Positions 8,287 through 16,668 of a stretch of DNA of 34,245 nt are shown here, piece by piece; position 1 is the stretch's first letter; every line of letters starts with the position of its first letter. The stretch spans positions 1 through 34,245 of the IMG/VR virus record IMGVR_UViG_3300017726_000032. The stretch is one strand, 5' to 3'. The notes beneath the pieces are model-generated. The model saw only the letters and a program-made list of their open reading frames with translations, searched no databases and was not told the DNA's origin. The position numbers and the translations under genes were made by a program. The DNA comes from a virus.

Positions 8287-11178
8287 ATGAAGTGGTTATG
8301 GAATAAAATAGATTTCTGGAATACCGCGACTAGCAGGAGCACAACAGTTAGTACTTCTAAATCGACGGCTACTAGCAAATCCACAACTACTACTTTTAAC
8401 ACAAGTAAGAATACCACTACTACTTTCAATACAAGTACTAATACAACTACTACATTTGAAACTAGTAAAAGTACAAGTACAGTATTTAATACTAGTACTA
8501 CAACTACCTTTGAAACTTCTAGAGAAACTACTGTATCAACTAGTAGATCAACTAGCACGGAGTTTAATACTAGCACATCTACAACCACAACCTTTGAAAC
8601 TAGTAAGTCAACCTCGACTGTTTTCAATACTAGCACTACAACAACTTTTAATACAACTAGAGAAACAACCGTTTCTACTAGTAGGTCAACTACAACTACT
8701 TTTGAGACTTCAAAAAGTACTACAACTACTTTTGAAACAAGCAAGTCTACTTCAACAGTTTTTAATACTAGTACAACAACTACTTTTAATACTACTAGAG
8801 AAACTACAGTATCAACAAGTAGAACTACTCAAACTGCATACAACACTACTAGAAGCACAAATACAACGTTTGCAACTAGCAAGAGTACTACGACTACATT
8901 TAACACAAGTACTACAACCACATTTGAAACTAATAGGTCTACCACCGTATCAACAAGTAAAAGTACAACCACAACGTTTAACACTACGAGAACTACAGAA
9001 ACTACTTTTAATACTACAAGAAGCACTAGCACTGTATTTAATACAAGTACTACGACAACTTTTAATACAAGTAGAGAAACCACAATAAGCACGTCTAGAT
9101 CAACTCAAACAACATTTGCTACTAGTAGATCTACATCTACAGTTTTTAACACTAGTACAACTACTACATTCAATACAAGTAGAGAAACTACAGTAAGCAC
9201 ATCAAGATCTACGACAACTACTTTTAATACTAGTAAGTCTACATCTACGGTATTTAATACCAGTACAACAACAACTTTTGAAACAAGTAGACAAACAACT
9301 GTTTCAACTAGTAGGAATACGACTACTACTTTCAACACTAGTAAGAACACTACCACTACGTTTAACACAACTAAATCTACTAGTACAGTATTTAACACAA
9401 GCACTACTACTACTTTCAATACTAGTAGAGGCACTACTATATCTACATCTAGATCTACAACAACCACGTTTAATACAAGTAAAAATACTACGACCACTTT
9501 TAATACAACAAGGTCTACAAGTACTGTGTTTAATACTAGCACTACTACAACATTTAACACCACTAGACAAACGACAATATCAACTAGTAGAAACACCACT
9601 ACTACATTTAATACGAGTAAAAACACTACTACTACATTTGCTACAAGTAGATCCACAAGTACGGTATTTAATACTAGTACGACTACTACATTTAACACAA
9701 GCAGGGTCACAACTATTTCAACTAGTAGAAACACAACTACAACTTTCAACACTACGAGGACTACTCAAACAACATTTGCTACAAGTAAATCTACTACCAC
9801 GGTGTTTAATACGACAACTTTAACTACGTTTAACACAACAACTACGTTTAACACGTCTAAATCTACGTCAACTAGTAGAAATACCAGTTATGCTACTACT
9901 AGATCTACTCAAACCGCGTATAATACTACTAGGTCAACTCAAACAACTTTTGCTACAAATAGAAGCACGGCAACTAGTAGAAATACTACTTATGCTACTA
10001 GTAGATCTACACTCACTGTTTTCAATACAACGACGTTAACAACATTTGGGACGCAAACAACTTTTTCTACAAGTAAGTCAACTACAACTGTATTTAACAC
10101 CACTACTTTAACCACGTTTAATACAACAACAACTTTTAACACTAGTAAGTCAACCTCAACTGTTTTCAATACAACAACTTTAACTGTGTTTAATACGACA
10201 ACAACTTTTAACACTACTAGATCAACTAGTACAGTTTTCAACACAACAACTTTAACCACGTTTAACACTACCACTACTTTTAACACAACAACAACGTTTA
10301 GTACTACTACTTTTTATAACACTAGTACTAATACAACTACTACTTTTTCAACATCAACAAGTAGAAACACTACTACTACATATTCAACATCAACAAATAG
10401 AGCTACTAGTACAATATTTAGCACTACTAAATCTACTAACGTTAACTATGTTGTGTGGGATGTGAGTGCGGGAGATAATAGCACGGCTGGTGCGGGTTAT
10501 GTGTACCAACAAAACCTAAGTCCTACCGCTGGAAGTAACATTAGTGCAGCTAGAATTAGATTTAATGCTCAATTTCCTGAAAACGCTAGTAAAGTATATA
10601 TACATGAAGAAGATGATACAGGTGACAACCTTTATAACGCGTTTTTAAATATAATGACTTTTGTTAATGCTGGTGGTGGAAATTTTGCTAGACTTCTTTG
10701 GGCTGGTGACAATTCAAAAAATATTTCTTTTAAAGTTACCGGTGGATCATATAATTCTACTTTAGATTATTTTGAATTTGATCTAGCTGGAGACATATTT
10801 GTTGACACAGTTAAATTCCCAAGTCATAACACGTTTGGGCTAGAAGCAAATGATACAAAAGGAGACCTATGGATGTGGAGAAGTGATGGTGCTGGCGGAT
10901 ACAGTTCAAGTACTACAACAACATTTTCTACTAGTACTTTAACCACGTTTAACACAGCTAGATCTACTAGTAAATCAACATCTAGAACAACAAATACAAC
11001 AACTGTATTTAACACAAGTAGATCAACAAGTAGAAGTACTAATATAACAACAACATATAGTACAAGTACACTTACTACAAAAATAACACAGTTTAACGCA
11101 TTTACTTTATATAATACATTTAGATCAACATTTACATCCGGCGGTGGCGGCGGCGGTTGTAGTAGAGGTTGTCAATAA
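8287..11178 (+). CDS. Giant Thr/Ser-rich repeat fibre/adhesin 1
   Basis: A 963-residue protein, most of which is 8- and 10-residue units of the type S-R-x-T-T-T-T-F-N-T, S-T-T-T-T-F-N-T and T-R-E-T-T-V-S-T. These combine into a 46-residue super-repeat (example start Ser at 8518 and its equivalent at 8656, exactly 138 bp apart). Nearly every unit carries one Phe/Val, most carry one Arg/Lys, and many have an N-T-S/T triplet; Pro and Cys are absent from the repeats. Residues about 717-874 form a non-repetitive island with Trp, Gly and acidic residues (WDVSAGDNSTAGAG; DLWMWRSDGAGG), perhaps the folded receptor-binding domain. After a short repeat tail it ends in GGGGGGCSRGCQ. It is likely a virion fibre made of extended beta structure; no family is known to me. 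The start MKWLWNKIDFWN follows TCTAATTTA. Confidence 0.85.
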   Translation: MKWLWNKIDFWNTATSRSTTVSTSKSTATSKSTTTTFNTSKNTTTTFNTSTNTTTTFETSKSTSTVFNTSTTTTFETSRETTVSTSRSTSTEFNTSTSTTTTFETSKSTSTVFNTSTTTTFNTTRETTVSTSRSTTTTFETSKSTTTTFETSKSTSTVFNTSTTTTFNTTRETTVSTSRTTQTAYNTTRSTNTTFATSKSTTTTFNTSTTTTFETNRSTTVSTSKSTTTTFNTTRTTETTFNTTRSTSTVFNTSTTTTFNTSRETTISTSRSTQTTFATSRSTSTVFNTSTTTTFNTSRETTVSTSRSTTTTFNTSKSTSTVFNTSTTTTFETSRQTTVSTSRNTTTTFNTSKNTTTTFNTTKSTSTVFNTSTTTTFNTSRGTTISTSRSTTTTFNTSKNTTTTFNTTRSTSTVFNTSTTTTFNTTRQTTISTSRNTTTTFNTSKNTTTTFATSRSTSTVFNTSTTTTFNTSRVTTISTSRNTTTTFNTTRTTQTTFATSKSTTTVFNTTTLTTFNTTTTFNTSKSTSTSRNTSYATTRSTQTAYNTTRSTQTTFATNRSTATSRNTTYATSRSTLTVFNTTTLTTFGTQTTFSTSKSTTTVFNTTTLTTFNTTTTFNTSKSTSTVFNTTTLTVFNTTTTFNTTRSTSTVFNTTTLTTFNTTTTFNTTTTFSTTTFYNTSTNTTTTFSTSTSRNTTTTYSTSTNRATSTIFSTTKSTNVNYVVWDVSAGDNSTAGAGYVYQQNLSPTAGSNISAARIRFNAQFPENASKVYIHEEDDTGDNLYNAFLNIMTFVNAGGGNFARLLWAGDNSKNISFKVTGGSYNSTLDYFEFDLAGDIFVDTVKFPSHNTFGLEANDTKGDLWMWRSDGAGGYSSSTTTTFSTSTLTTFNTARSTSKSTSRTTNTTTVFNTSRSTSRSTNITTTYSTSTLTTKITQFNAFTLYNTFRSTFTSGGGGGGCSRGCQ
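8320..10436 (+). repeat. Coding repeat array, 46-aa (138-bp) super-repeat
   Basis: Within fibre 1 the protein repeat is nearly perfect but the DNA copies differ because all four Thr codons (ACA, ACT, ACC, ACG) and both Ser codon families are used interchangeably. The pattern is 8+10n+8 residues, with n usually 3. Toward the 3' end a variant module (TVFNTTTLTTFNTTTTFNT) replaces it. The palindrome ACTAGT (Thr-Ser) recurs many times. Confidence 0.85.
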
Positions 11179-11188
11179 AATTAAAAAC

Positions 11189-12220
11189 ATGAATATACCT
11201 TATAGAACATCGGGTACGCAGGAAAATTACCATGCAGCTGATTTAACTTTTCGTGAAAATGGAGACATAGTCTGGACCAACCCTGTTACTAACGAGATAT
11301 GGGAGGTCATGATGGACTGGGAGATACCAATAATGCAAAAAGCCGCTGAGGTATGTGTTGAAGCTGGTGATGATGTTTTAGAGTGTGGTTTTGGTATGGG
11401 TATATTGTCTGACGCTATACAAGCTAGAAACCCAGGTACACATACAATATGTGAAACGCATCCTCAAATAATACCTAAGTTAAAAGCTTGGGCCAAAGAT
11501 AAACCTAATGTAATTGTTATTGAAGATAAGTGGTTAAGCTTATTAAACGAGCGTAAAGGTTATGATGCAATACTAATGGACACGTATGCAGACCCTGATT
11601 TGCATCCTCATTTTAGATATTTTGTAAAACAAAAAGCAAAAGACGGAGCTAAAATAACATGGTGGAATTTTAGTGGTGGAACAACAGATGAATATATGAG
11701 GTTTTACTGGGACGATGTAGTGTTCCATGATGTGGCTATATCTCCACCTGAAAATCAATATTATAATAGAAAAGTGTATCATGTTCCGGTTAAAATTTAT
11801 AATAGAGAAACAGGTTTTGGCGTGTTATCAAATTCTAATTTTAATACAAGTGAAACAGAAGCTAAAAATCTTGAAGAAGCTAGATCGTTTTTAATTTGTG
11901 ACATTTCAAATGGAACAAAAAGTGTTAAAGATGTTGATGGTGTTGAAAGATTAGCAATGTACTGCGAAGGTTTGTATACTTTAAATGAAAGTTTAGTTAT
12001 AGCAGGTTCACACTCTATATATGTAAAAAGAAATAATCAATGGACTACAGTTAAAGTAAATGAACTAGTGGTTGGTGATAAACTATATGGTAAAGATGGA
12101 GAAGTTGAGTTAACAAGTAAAACTTTTGATTCGTCTGAAACAACAAGACAAATATATAAAGTAATGCTTAATAACTATTTTGTTAACGATATATTATTGA
12201 AAGGAGGGTCTGATGCCTAA
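11189..12220 (+). CDS. GAMT/RMT2-like guanidino/arginine methyltransferase with Hint-like C-terminus
   Basis: 343 residues starting at ATG 11189; an in-frame GTG at 11144 lies inside the previous gene, whereas this ATG has an A-rich leader. Residues ~35-170 resemble guanidinoacetate N-methyltransferase and arginine methyltransferase Rmt2: MMDWEIPIM (Glu45), the SAM loop LECGFGMG (65-71), ICETHP, NVIVIEDKW, and MDTYADPDLH (Asp131), then ITWWNFSG. In GAMT the Glu of WE-x-P and the Asp of DTY bind the guanidino group, and both are present. After about residue 235 the protein changes character and looks like a Hint module: GSHSIYVKRNNQW, VKVNELVVGDKLYGKDG, QIYKVMLNNYFVNDIL. The terminal His-Asn of active Hint domains is absent. 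It sits between two Arg-containing repeat fibres and overlaps the second by 8 nt, so methylation of fibre arginines is an attractive but unproven role. Confidence 0.75.
   Translation: MNIPYRTSGTQENYHAADLTFRENGDIVWTNPVTNEIWEVMMDWEIPIMQKAAEVCVEAGDDVLECGFGMGILSDAIQARNPGTHTICETHPQIIPKLKAWAKDKPNVIVIEDKWLSLLNERKGYDAILMDTYADPDLHPHFRYFVKQKAKDGAKITWWNFSGGTTDEYMRFYWDDVVFHDVAISPPENQYYNRKVYHVPVKIYNRETGFGVLSNSNFNTSETEAKNLEEARSFLICDISNGTKSVKDVDGVERLAMYCEGLYTLNESLVIAGSHSIYVKRNNQWTTVKVNELVVGDKLYGKDGEVELTSKTFDSSETTRQIYKVMLNNYFVNDILLKGGSDA
12201..12207 (+). promoter_or_regulatory. Shine-Dalgarno-like AAGGAGG before fibre 2
   Basis: AAGGAGG lies 5 nt before the ATG at 12213, inside the 3' coding end of the methyltransferase. 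Almost all other genes in the window have A/T-rich leaders and no such site, as expected in Bacteroidota. It may support coupled re-initiation at the ATGCCTAA overlap, or be a chance product of Lys-Gly-Gly codons. Confidence 0.45.
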
Positions 12221-14657
12221 TACTACTACTGTTTTTGGAACATCGAGGTTAACGTTAAAATCTCAACTTACTGCATACACTACTATATTTAATGAAAGTA
12301 GAAGCACAGCTATTACAACTACTTTTAATACCACTTACGCAACTAGTAAATCAACTTCTACAACTACTATTTACAACACTAGTTATACTACTACTTATAA
12401 TACAACTAGAACTAGTAATTATGCTACTAGTAGAACCACTAGTACAACTGTAGGTGCAGATATGGATGATGATGTGATGACATTGTATAACACGAGTACT
12501 AACACTACTACTACATTTAATACACTAACTAGTAGAAGTACACTAACCGTATTTAATACACTTACAACGCGTAGTACAACAACCAATTTTAACACTAGCA
12601 CAGAAACACTGACTAGTAGAAGCACAGCTACAAGTAGAAGTACAGCTACAAGTAGAAATACCAGTTATGCTACTAGCAAAAATACGACAACAACTTTTAA
12701 CACGCAAAGATCAACTGAAACAAGTAGAAATACTACGGTATCAACAAGTAAAAATACTACTACCACGTATAATACTACAAGAAGTACTGCCACAAGTAGA
12801 AATACAACTGTATCTACTAGTAGAAACACAACTACTACATTCAATACAAGTACTGTTACGCAAACAAGTAGAAATACAACTGTGTCTACCAGTAAAAATA
12901 CTACTACTACGTTTAACACGCAGACGTTGACAACTTTTAATACCACAACTACTTTTAATACTAGTAAGAATACAACAACTACGTTTTCAACAAGTACTAA
13001 TACCACAACTACGTTTAACACGCAGACGTTAACAGTTTTTAATACTACAACAACTTTTAATACCACTAGATCAACAGCAACTAGTAGAAATACGACTGTA
13101 TCCACTAGTAAAAGTACAACTACAACATTTAACACTAGTAAAAACACAACAACTACGTTTAACACCACTAGGTCAACCACAACAACATTTAATACTTCCA
13201 CAACTACAACGTTTAATACGTCTAGGTCTACAACTGTGAGTACAAGTAGAAATACAACTACAACGTTCAACACGACAAGAAGTACTCAAACAACGTTTGC
13301 TACAAGTAAAAGTACTACTACAGTTTTCAATACTTCTACTACTACAACTTTCAACACATCTAGATCAACTACTGTAAGCACGAGTAGAAACACAACAACA
13401 ACTTTTAATACTACTAGGTCAACACAAACCACATTTGCCACTAGTAGAAATACAACAACTGTATTTAATACAAGTACGACCACTACGTTTAATACATCTA
13501 GGTCTACTACAATAAGTACAAGCAGAAACACTACGACTACTTTTAATACCACTAGAACTACACAGACTACTTTTGCTACTAGTAAATCAACTACTACAGT
13601 GTTCAACACAAGTACAACCACTACGTTTAACACATCAAGATCTACAACTATTAGCACAAGTAGAAACACTACTACGGTATATGCTACAAGTAAATCAACA
13701 ACTACTACTTTTAACACGTCTACAACAACGACATTTAATACTAGTAGATCAACAACTGTATCAACTAGTAGAAATACAACAACGACATTTAATACTAGTA
13801 AAAATACGACTACAACATTTAATACTAGCACAACGACCACGTTTAATACTAGTAGATCTACTACGGTTTCTACTAGCAGAAACACGACTACAACGTTTAA
13901 TACTAGTAAGAATACTACCACGACGTTTAATACCTCTAAGAGTACTACTACGGTATTTAATACATCTACAACCACTACTTTTAACACAAGTAGGGTTACA
14001 ACTATAAGCACGTCAAGGTCTACTACTACAATATTTAACACGAGTAAGTCCACAACTACAACGTTTCAAACTAGTACTAACACAACTACTACTTTTAATA
14101 CGAGTACCACAACTACTTTTGAAACTAGTAGGTCAACTACGATTAGTACGTCTAGAAATACTACTACGACTTTTAATACAACTAAGTCTACTACTACTAC
14201 GTTTAATACTAGCAAGAGTACGACAACTGTGTTTAATACATCAACAACAACTACGTTTGAAACTAGTAGATCAACTACAGTTAGTACTAGTAGAAATACA
14301 ACCACAACTTTTAATACAACTAAATCTACTACTACGAATTATAATACTAGTACTAATACTACGACTACGTTTAACACTAGTACTACCACCACTTTTAACA
14401 CAAGTAGAAGCACAACTATAAGTACATCTAGGAATACTACAACGACGTTTAATACTACTAGGACCACACAGACAACTTTTAGTACAAGTAAGAGTACAAC
14501 AACAATTTTTGAGACAACAAAGAGTACTACTACAATATTTAACACTACGACTGTATTTAATACTAGTACTACCACTACGTTTCAAACTAATACAAACTGG
14601 TACGATGGTGATCCTAGTAATTTTGGTCAATTAGGTGACGTGTCATTTGAAAGGTAG
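12213..14657 (+). CDS. Giant Thr/Ser-rich repeat fibre/adhesin 2
   Basis: An 814-residue paralogue of the 963-residue fibre. Residues ~1-95 are less regular (MPNTTTVFGTSRLTLKSQL; TVGADMDDDVMTLYN). The rest is almost wholly units such as S-R-N-T-T-T-T-F-N-T, T-R-S-T-Q-T-T-F-A-T, S-K-S-T-T-T-V-F-N-T and S-T-T-T-T-F-N-T, and it ends in a short unique tail (NWYDGDPSNFGQLGDVSFER). Acidic residues are almost missing from the repeats, so the shaft is strongly positive. Unlike fibre 1 it has no inserted globular domain and no Gly-Cys tail. It is probably an extended, beta-rich virion fibre or host-surface adhesin. The start overlaps the methyltransferase stop (ATGCCTAA). Confidence 0.85.
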   Translation: MPNTTTVFGTSRLTLKSQLTAYTTIFNESRSTAITTTFNTTYATSKSTSTTTIYNTSYTTTYNTTRTSNYATSRTTSTTVGADMDDDVMTLYNTSTNTTTTFNTLTSRSTLTVFNTLTTRSTTTNFNTSTETLTSRSTATSRSTATSRNTSYATSKNTTTTFNTQRSTETSRNTTVSTSKNTTTTYNTTRSTATSRNTTVSTSRNTTTTFNTSTVTQTSRNTTVSTSKNTTTTFNTQTLTTFNTTTTFNTSKNTTTTFSTSTNTTTTFNTQTLTVFNTTTTFNTTRSTATSRNTTVSTSKSTTTTFNTSKNTTTTFNTTRSTTTTFNTSTTTTFNTSRSTTVSTSRNTTTTFNTTRSTQTTFATSKSTTTVFNTSTTTTFNTSRSTTVSTSRNTTTTFNTTRSTQTTFATSRNTTTVFNTSTTTTFNTSRSTTISTSRNTTTTFNTTRTTQTTFATSKSTTTVFNTSTTTTFNTSRSTTISTSRNTTTVYATSKSTTTTFNTSTTTTFNTSRSTTVSTSRNTTTTFNTSKNTTTTFNTSTTTTFNTSRSTTVSTSRNTTTTFNTSKNTTTTFNTSKSTTTVFNTSTTTTFNTSRVTTISTSRSTTTIFNTSKSTTTTFQTSTNTTTTFNTSTTTTFETSRSTTISTSRNTTTTFNTTKSTTTTFNTSKSTTTVFNTSTTTTFETSRSTTVSTSRNTTTTFNTTKSTTTNYNTSTNTTTTFNTSTTTTFNTSRSTTISTSRNTTTTFNTTRTTQTTFSTSKSTTTIFETTKSTTTIFNTTTVFNTSTTTTFQTNTNWYDGDPSNFGQLGDVSFER
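12499..14589 (+). repeat. Coding repeat array of fibre 2, 138/108-bp periods
   Basis: Equivalent Ser codons of the super-repeat start at 13221, 13359, 13497, 13635, 13743, 13851 and 13989. The spacings are 138, 138, 138, 108, 108 and 138 bp. The 108-bp spacing is the 138-bp period minus exactly one 10-residue (30-bp) unit, so units have been gained or lost whole. Codons are heavily varied synonymously between copies. Confidence 0.88.
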
Positions 14658-14710: not shown

Positions 14711-15604
14711 ATGGAAATGTTTAACAGACGTGAGTTGGACAAAAGAATTGGCCATCTCAAAAAAAATAAAAAACTTGAAAGTTTAGAACAAGTAGAAGGA
14801 TACTTTATAAGAAAGTGTACTGAGGCTGGTATTGAGTTTAGCTATGATGTTATGGCTGATGAAATGCCTTATTTTAAAACTTTAGCATACACTGAGTTTG
14901 CTACTAGTTTTTATATGCAACCTTTAAACACGAAGCTTAGGTATGCTCAAATGATTGATGCTTACGCTGACGACTGCGAAGTTGTTGATTACTCATCTTA
15001 TTTAATTGAAAATATTATGAGTAAAAATGCTAACAAGTATCAAGATAGAAACTCTAAATTTGATCAATATGAGCCGAAAGATAATATTGTTATATTACCT
15101 GGCTCAAATAAAGTAAAATCCAATATTTGTTTAAACAGATTAAAGTTTTTAGCAAATAAACATGGTAATAACATGTATTTTAAGCCACATCCTATAACAA
15201 CGCATCAAATTATTGGTGAGTTAAAAGATTTTTTTGGCGATAGTAATATATTACCAAGGGATATAGATATGTATTATTATCTGCAAAAAGCAAATAACGT
15301 ATACACAACACATATTAGTGAAAGTATGATATACGCGGCTGTTTTAGGTAAAAAAATAGAACCTATTGATGTTTGGAATAATATACAAATGGGATCTTTT
15401 TACTGTATTAACAATCATTTGCTTGATAATCAGCATGATATTAAGAATTATATCAATAAATGTTTTTCAAGCCCAAAGTCTGGTATTATAAACCCAGCTG
15501 TAGACAAAAATTGGAAAGAAAAAATAGATAAATACTTGCAATACATACTTAAAAAACGAGAAATGTACAAAGACTGGTTTATAGCTGAACCAAAAAAGAA
15601 GTAA
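14711..15604 (+). CDS. GT-B-like glycosyltransferase candidate
   Basis: A 297-residue soluble protein. The C-terminal half has the look of the donor-binding domain of capsule/CDP-glycerol-type GT-B transferases: DNIVILPGSNKVKSN at ~124-138, a KPHP motif at 158-161, then ILPRDIDMYYYLQKANNVYT and THISESMIYAAVLGKKIEPI (to ~219). In those families the K-P-H-P histidine and the Ser-Glu-Ser loop contact the nucleotide-sugar phosphates. The N-terminal half (~1-110) is unlike anything I can name. It directly follows two Thr/Ser/Asn-rich fibres, so glycosylating them, or modifying host surface glycans, would make sense. It could instead be a diverged protein that merely shares the fold. Start ATG follows TTAAATTTAATTAT. 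Confidence 0.5.
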   Translation: MEMFNRRELDKRIGHLKKNKKLESLEQVEGYFIRKCTEAGIEFSYDVMADEMPYFKTLAYTEFATSFYMQPLNTKLRYAQMIDAYADDCEVVDYSSYLIENIMSKNANKYQDRNSKFDQYEPKDNIVILPGSNKVKSNICLNRLKFLANKHGNNMYFKPHPITTHQIIGELKDFFGDSNILPRDIDMYYYLQKANNVYTTHISESMIYAAVLGKKIEPIDVWNNIQMGSFYCINNHLLDNQHDIKNYINKCFSSPKSGIINPAVDKNWKEKIDKYLQYILKKREMYKDWFIAEPKKK

Positions 15605-15894: not shown

Positions 15895-16090
15895 CATAGG
15901 TAGAGATTACAAGAACGATGCAATGCATTATTCAGTTGGTCAAGAAGTTTATGGTAATCATATTATATGTGACATCATAGAATCTAAAGACAAGTTTAGT
16001 GTTTTAATTGAAAAAAACAACGAGGTTTTACCTTGGAAAGATTTTAATAAAAACATGGCTGTATCAGTTGAATATAATCTTGAGTATTAA
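15872..16090 (+). CDS. Conserved-type hypothetical protein, 72 aa
   Basis: A 72-residue protein with a beta-rich pattern (IRKISIGRDYKNDAMHYSVG; IICDIIESKDKFSVLIEKN; WKDFNKNMAVSVEYNLEY). I recall similar short proteins upstream of terminases in marine phages, without known function. It starts inside the preceding coiled-coil gene and its stop overlaps the next start by one base (TAATG), so these genes are tightly coupled. Confidence 0.7.
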   Translation: MKLIRKISIGRDYKNDAMHYSVGQEVYGNHIICDIIESKDKFSVLIEKNNEVLPWKDFNKNMAVSVEYNLEY

Positions 16091-16668
16091 TGAAAGGAAC
16101 GTTTTATTTTTTAATAAAACCTAAAACGCAACGATACAATAATACTAAAAAAATTGGTGATAAAGAACTTATTTTAAACTCTGAAATTTACAACCATCAA
16201 TATGTTAGCCGTGAGGCTGTTGTTGTAGGTTTACCTTCAGAGTTTAACTCACCGATTGAAGAAGATGACGAGGTAATCGTACATCATAATGTATTTAGAA
16301 GATGGCATGATGCAAGAGGTAAAGAGCGTAATTCAGGTAGTTATATAAAAGAAGATTTATACAGAGTTAGTGTAGATCAGATATTTGCTTATAAAAAAAT
16401 AGTAGAGTGGAAAGCTTTACCAGGTTATTCATTTATAAAGCCTATACAAAAGCAAGACGGATCTGAAGCTGATCAAATAGGTATTGTAAAATATTCCGAT
16501 GGTAGTTTTAAAAAAGGCGAACTAGTAGGTTATAATAAAGCAGCTGAGTATGAGTTTATCATAGGCGCTGAAAGATTATACAGAGTTCCAAACATTTTTA
16601 TTGAAATTAAATATGAGTACAAAGGAAAAGAAAAAGAATATAATCCAAGCTGGTTACAGAGCGGTTGA
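16090..16668 (+). CDS. Putative GroES-like double beta-barrel protein
   Basis: A 192-residue protein with two similar halves. The first has REAVVVGLPSEFNSPIEEDD, EVIVHHNVFRRWHDARGKE and a strand ending in YRVSVDQIFAYK. The second begins WKALPGYSFIKPIQKQDGSE, continues with GIVKYSDGSFKKGELVGYNK, and ends EFIIGAERLYRV. Both halves show the order strand-loop-G-x-V-x-x-G-D/E-x-V typical of Cpn10-like barrels, so it may be a specialised co-chaperonin or a head assembly factor. This reading is by eye and modest in strength. Its 3' end overlaps the next gene by 56 nt in another frame. Confidence 0.5.
   Translation: MKGTFYFLIKPKTQRYNNTKKIGDKELILNSEIYNHQYVSREAVVVGLPSEFNSPIEEDDEVIVHHNVFRRWHDARGKERNSGSYIKEDLYRVSVDQIFAYKKIVEWKALPGYSFIKPIQKQDGSEADQIGIVKYSDGSFKKGELVGYNKAAEYEFIIGAERLYRVPNIFIEIKYEYKGKEKEYNPSWLQSG

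Follow-up and report, generated by a model that had tools for sequence, protein, structure and literature searches.

Why would a phage carry, wedged between two genes for threonine-rich, fibre-like proteins, a gene for a methyltransferase that resembles guanidinoacetate methyltransferase (GAMT)? The question is raised by a single linear IMG/VR record, IMGVR_UViG_3300017726_000032, whose positions 1 to 34,245 form the window, that is, the whole stretch of DNA analysed here (34,245 nucleotides). The host is probably a flavobacterium, since 86 of the 87 INPHARED records matched by the large terminase are phages of Flavobacterium, Cellulophaga, Tenacibaculum or Maribacter; the best terminase match, at 63%, is an uncultured phage. 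The reading frame of the enzyme runs from an ATG at 11189 to a stop at 12220 (343 residues), beginning 10 nt past the stop of the first flanking gene and overlapping the start of the second by 8 nt (Table 1). The repeats of the two flanking proteins suggest that they are fibres, called fibre 1 and fibre 2 below. The answer favoured here, with a probability of roughly 0.6, is that the enzyme is a putative phage protein-arginine methyltransferase acting on the tail of a virion protein.

Table 1. The enzyme gene of the window, its predicted domains and residues, and its neighbours.
Feature	Position	Strand	Remarks
Thr-rich fibre-like protein 1, 963 aa	8287..11178	+	39% Thr, R5 K3; upstream partner
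Gly-run tail GGGGGGCSRGCQ of protein 1 with candidate target Arg960	11140..11175	+	codon AGA 11164-11166
GAMT-type methyltransferase domain, residues 1-205	11189..11803	+	sequence and fold matches
W44-E45	11318..11323	+	kept in 112/112 clusters; E45 pairs with GAMT E45
SAM loop GFGMG, residues 67-71	11387..11401	+	
D131	11579..11581	+	109/112 clusters; pairs with GAMT D134
Hint / bacterial-intein-like (BIL) domain, residues 208-339	11810..12205	+	Z 17.9 to 2lwy and 6y75, over 126-130 residues; 18-tail alignment
Thr-rich fibre-like protein 2, 814 aa	12213..14657	+	46% Thr; AAAGGAGGG at 12200-12208
Conserved 297-aa gene, phrog_26179 (unknown function)	14711..15604	+	tree marker

The nature of the catalytic core is the first issue. 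The first-pass annotation had read in this frame the SAM loop of a methyltransferase and the two acids that bind the guanidino group in GAMT, and both readings hold: G67-F68-G69-M70-G71, W44-E45 and D131-T132-Y133 are all present. The comparison with GAMT that it had proposed is equally clear. In a phmmer search of the PDB the protein matches four distinct GAMT sequences (E 1.2e-10 to 5.5e-10), a profile built from 49 relatives matches GAMT at E 8e-26, and Foldseek places the enzyme model on GAMT at 2.8e-10. The AlphaFold2 model (pLDDT 92) superposes on 1xcj with a Z of 21.5 over 193 residues (rmsd 2.4, 24% identity), whereas the best methyltransferase-fold entry outside GAMT reaches a Z of 15.6. 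In the phmmer alignment, residue 40 of the query lies opposite residue 40 of 1xcj_A, with three gaps ahead of D131; E45 therefore pairs with GAMT E45 and D131 with GAMT D134, which we take to be the guanidino-binding acids. Across the family described below, W44 and E45 are kept in all 112 clusters formed at 90% identity, and D131 in 109 (the exceptions being two Phe and one gap). A Pfam scan of the enzyme at E up to 0.1 gave no PRMT family; its only entries, Methyltransf_25, DUF5498 and RrnaAD, fell short of their cut-offs. Assignment to the GAMT-fold, guanidino-type methyltransferases is supported.

The likeness to GAMT (1xcj, 3orh, 1p1b, 1khh) covers the fold, the SAM loop, W44-E45 and the equivalent of D134, whereas the phage gene differs in sitting between virion-protein genes and, in phages with threonine-rich fibres (Thr-fibre phages), in carrying a C-terminal Hint domain. 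The product of GAMT is creatine, and the gene context speaks against a role of the phage enzyme in turning guanidinoacetate into creatine. Rmt2, the type IV PRMT of fungi and plants, modifies protein arginine with a catalytic domain like that of GAMT. PMC3365026 reports that Rmt2 methylates Arg67 of Rpl12 and is needed for delta-N-methylarginine. Rmt2 belongs to other organisms and has another substrate than the one proposed here, and its likeness to the phage enzyme is putative. Type I and II PRMTs act on RGG motifs; the proposed phage substrate, a Gly-flanked Arg-Gly, is alike in this respect, whereas the second domain of the phage enzyme is a Hint domain and not the PRMT barrel.

This second domain, which the first-pass annotation had missed, shares the fold of the Hint/BIL entries 2lwy and 6y75, and an alignment profile matches an intein, 9hth (E 4e-4). 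Splicing by inteins and BIL domains relies on an N-terminal Cys or Ser nucleophile and a C-terminal His-Asn. In 18 aligned Hint tails there is no conserved Cys near the start (the nucleophile position being judged by eye) and no terminal His-Asn, which makes self-splicing unlikely: the phage domain has the fold of its known relatives but apparently not their splicing residues. Among the loci read, the domain is confined to Thr-fibre phages. It is absent from a few Thr-fibre phages (loci L010, L043, L049 and L058), which form a small group with a second Rossmann protein after the enzyme, and elsewhere in the family the enzyme is mostly 182-218 residues long.

The family is large. Two scans of IMG/VR gave 452 and 428 related stretches, and the loci read were the best 80 of the 452 and the best 80 of the 428, plus further loci. 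The 200 viral loci, several of which share one contig, fall into the 112 clusters, with three bacterial loci (L092-L094) left out before clustering. Elsewhere the family is scarce: 1 of 50,697 INPHARED records, LR745206, holds a member (tblastn, three members), three partner proteins tried against INPHARED found no match there, and PLSDB gave one weak match (E 8e-4). An annotated relative in BFVD, A0A8D9CBY1, is named 'Putative guanidinoacetate methyltransferase [uncultured marine phage]'. The enzyme in the window matches no PHROG at E 0.1 and four other family members match none better than E 0.003, so that annotation misses the family.

The position of the gene is highly regular, even where its neighbours differ. 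With a neighbour search spanning about -200 to +40 nt upstream and about -150 to +130 nt downstream, a same-strand ORF ends close upstream of the enzyme gene in 108/112 clusters (within -75 to +40 nt in 105 of them), and a same-strand ORF starts close downstream in 109 (within -60 to +40 nt in 108). Sorted by a pattern in their 45 C-terminal residues, which may misfile a few, the upstream proteins fall into a YFNPDxTW type (49 clusters), an SFYWDADN type (23), Thr-rich proteins (21), coiled coils (6) and others (10), and three clusters have no upstream protein on the contig. Downstream partners are of four kinds: an RSFxFD protein, a BACON-domain protein (Pfam PF13004 in L047, E 3.6e-7), another Thr fibre or another Rossmann protein. 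Some loci have peculiarities of their own: giant GSSGTSG-repeat proteins stand directly 5' of the enzyme gene in L011-L014, exceeding 2600 residues in L012 and L013; the enzyme gene of L014 (887-1451) is broken into two frames; and in L015, the 634-kb phage LR745206, the same enzyme (11983-12567) comes after three large genes.

Which residue could such an enzyme modify? The first-pass annotation saw the enzyme and its two flanking fibres as a self-contained modification system, with the Arg or Lys that recurs at a fixed position every 8-10 residues of the repeats as candidate substrate. The link to neighbouring fibre-like genes has stood, and the periodic arginines as substrate have not. The spacing itself is real (R or K mostly 10, 8 or 18 residues apart), but the slot that follows xT[ST] is not fixed as Arg, because R, K and T are all common there (36/20/21 in fibre 1 and 36/19/18 in fibre 2). 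The expected companionship of the gene with an Arg-rich fibre also breaks down, an outcome that the annotation had itself named as refuting: a Thr-rich protein lies upstream in only 21/112 clusters, and where the upstream protein belongs to another main class the median R is 1.5-2.4%. Within the 21 Thr-fibre clusters R ranges from 0.5 to 7.0%, with K rising as R falls (r -0.88). Thr fibres without an adjoining enzyme, taken among the matches listed in a scan with the fibre N-terminus, have a median R of 3.4% (n=17), compared with 4.0% for those with it (n=30; Mann-Whitney p 0.80), so the repeats appear independent of the enzyme. That the enzyme methylates these repeats, as its place between two proteins with R or K every 8-10 residues might suggest, is therefore highly improbable, given the 91/112 clusters without a Thr-rich upstream protein, the R/K trade-off and the equal Arg content of enzyme-less fibres, and the repeat arginines were rejected as substrate.

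A single arginine in a C-terminal tail is a better candidate. The upstream Thr fibre ends in a Gly run with C-x-R-G-C or GGGGRGGGG, and the downstream BACON protein in a Gly run with RG. The rule for scoring a Gly-flanked RG was set from the tails of enzyme-bearing loci, BACON included, and enzyme-less loci were fetched afterwards. Such a tail is present on 29 of 31 Thr fibres next to an enzyme and on 0 of 17 Thr fibres without one, the latter among the matches listed. These 48 rows are the loci of the Thr tree, restricted to those in which the marker gene is present and fibre 1 can be read; three enzyme-less loci outside them (L239, L241, L263) are also without RG. L026 is counted as RG on the tail GGGCARGCQ, its frame read by hand, and L230, whose RG is not Gly-flanked, was scored as RG in the first Thr tree and as none under the Gly-flank rule. 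The tree holds four independent pairs, on average 3.9 in the same direction and 0 opposite (one pairing sometimes shows no difference). The sisters L010, with enzyme and GGGGRGGGG, and L250, without enzyme and ending in GGGDGGDGPGGPR, have similar Gly tails (support 98/91). The only enzyme-bearing rows without RG, L054 and L063, end in CFRNC, with R-N for R-G, and their enzymes have F-A at D131-T132.

The BACON proteins repeat the pattern from the other side of the enzyme gene. A BACON query without the Gly tail found 34 loci. Both traits could be scored in 30 of them: enzyme and RG occur together in 22, both are missing from eight, and none is discordant. Left out were L275, L284 and L290 (no upstream sequence; tails without RG) and L299 (no tail). 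On the tree of the BACON bodies each trait changes four times and 4/4 independent pairs run in the same direction (p 0.125 alone). Plain linkage fails to explain the BACON tail, because the whole protein body lies between tail and enzyme gene and the body tree mixes enzyme-bearing and enzyme-less lineages; in the Thr phages, the adjacent tail and enzyme gene may move as one piece. The enzyme-less L289 ends in GGGGGGGKGGGG, with Lys where its clade mates L276 and L278 have R (clade support 96/87), although a long branch makes the place of L289 in the tree unsure. Over the two trees 0/8 contrasts are opposed; each set alone gives p 0.125, and 8/8 pooled would give p 0.008.

Counts over all genes point the same way. 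A Gly-flanked RG lies in the last 25 residues of 53/349 enzyme-adjacent ORFs against 15/1548 other distinct ORFs (at least 100 residues), and two of those 15 (in L272 and L292) adjoin a truncated enzyme. Anywhere in the protein, the motif is found in 91/208 flanking and 59/496 other ORFs. In 24 enzyme-less contigs, all of them fragments, there is no second family member, and two weak matches lie where the other Rossmann protein sits.

The commonest class of locus, with 80 clusters, shows another picture. Its downstream RSFxFD protein, named for the motif, has 190-250 residues, no Pfam match in L106, L177 and L222 and, at a guess, a beta-sandwich fold. An internal loop carries an Arg that is invariant in 80/80 partners and is mostly followed by Gly (R-V in L178, R-N in L117). 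Among 159 RSFxFD ORFs, drawn from overlapping loci, four have no adjacent enzyme match, including L014 with its broken enzyme and L225, which is truncated. The R-G persists in L219 and L224, the only two genuine enzyme-less loci, so the Arg may be structural, and this loop is not claimed as a target. Under the strict rule, a Gly-flanked RG occurs in at least one neighbour in 87/112 clusters and in none in 25/112; L042 and L015 have the enzyme and no Gly-flanked RG in the adjacent genes.

How might the system work? Enzyme and substrate would be expressed from adjacent, often overlapping genes, as the gene order indicates. The GFGM loop would bind SAM, as fold and conservation suggest, and E45 and D131 would hold the Arg guanidinium, as in the alignment with GAMT. 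In Thr-fibre phages the candidate target is the single Arg in the Gly-rich stretch that ends fibre 1 (Arg960 in the window); in the second phage group it is the single Arg of the RG that follows a Gly run at the end of the downstream BACON-domain protein. Co-occurrence of enzyme and tail is consistent with methylation before or during assembly. More speculatively, the fused and apparently inert Hint domain could serve to dock the enzyme onto its fibre in Thr-fibre phages, and methylation could tune or protect the exposed tail, with receptor contact, protease resistance or tail packing as candidate benefits.

The tail-methylation reading has to be weighed against three other explanations. Enzyme and RG tail could both mark one type of host or receptor, the enzyme modifying another residue of the neighbouring protein. 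The two commonest-class loci that keep the RG loop without the enzyme fit this account, as do L042 and L015, where the enzyme has no adjoining RG; yet it does not readily predict tracking at the level of one residue, as in the change from R to K in L289, or four BACON contrasts out of four in which the gene body stays in its family, and it is judged unlikely. Considerably less probable is that the methyl acceptor is a host protein or a small metabolite with a guanidino group and that the fibre genes are only a convenient place for the gene: the same wedged position recurs across clusters despite very different neighbours, although GAMT itself makes creatine and the bacterial relatives L092-L094, among the matches listed, have no fibre-like neighbours recognised by eye.

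A non-catalytic assembly helper that retains the fold would suit the fused Hint domain and a position that resembles that of fibre chaperones. Near-invariance of the SAM loop and of both acids over 112 clusters argues against it, and little weight is given to this possibility. The reading of a methylated tail arginine invites a generalisation, offered tentatively and with the odds against it: a large, almost wholly uncultured family of phage protein-arginine methyltransferases with a GAMT core instead of a PRMT core, each serving one Gly-flanked Arg of a neighbouring virion protein (in the C-terminal tail where the phage has Thr fibres or a BACON protein, in the RSFxFD loop elsewhere) and possibly making delta-N-methylarginine as Rmt2 does.

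Methylation of phage virion proteins has a recent precedent. PMC13288928 (2026) describes Arg and Lys methylation of structural proteins of Cellulophaga phages, including two Arg of a putative tail fibre, and states that methylation of phage proteins was previously unreported. The paper adds that the phages it studied are not known to have methyltransferase genes of their own, and it proposes host enzymes. The hosts are flavobacteria, as is likely for the phage of the window, whereas here the candidate enzyme is phage-encoded. Searches of the open-licence PMC literature found no phage-encoded arginine methyltransferase and no phage GAMT. Should the wider family reading be right, then within the reach of these searches no earlier virus would be known to use an enzyme of its own for methylating its surface protein; tail methylation would in any case give a phage a way of chemically finishing its own surface parts. 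The candidate enzyme is dedicated and phage-encoded, its putative target residue can be named, and related loci without the enzyme serve as natural controls, the Arg-to-Lys change included. It makes a question testable: do phages chemically finish their exposed fibre tails, and with what effect on binding or stability?

The slot between the Thr fibres looks like a site for exchangeable modifying enzymes. A second Rossmann protein (family B) either replaces the GAMT-like enzyme there or follows it, and in enzyme-less Thr phages a different Rossmann protein or a relative of it takes the enzyme's place in 16/17 slots read, among the matches listed. Proteins of family B have about 185 residues and are spermidine-synthase- or methyltransferase-like (L230:6949-7518, L234:11269-11835 and others; L010:8558-9073). 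They are distantly similar to the enzyme profile (E 9e-10 to 0.01) and match Spermine_synth or MTS in Pfam (E 2.6e-4 to 4e-5); a model with pLDDT 92 matches only general methyltransferase and aminopropyltransferase folds, at a TMq of about 0.5.

Some minor observations concern the genes around the enzyme. Thr-rich relatives of the fibres reach 1937 residues, and the antisense strands of Thr-rich genes contain long open frames that are probably artefactual. The window also encodes a phage GroEL (1155-2720; PHROG E 2e-131) and a GroES-like co-chaperonin (16090-16668; PHROG E 9e-13).
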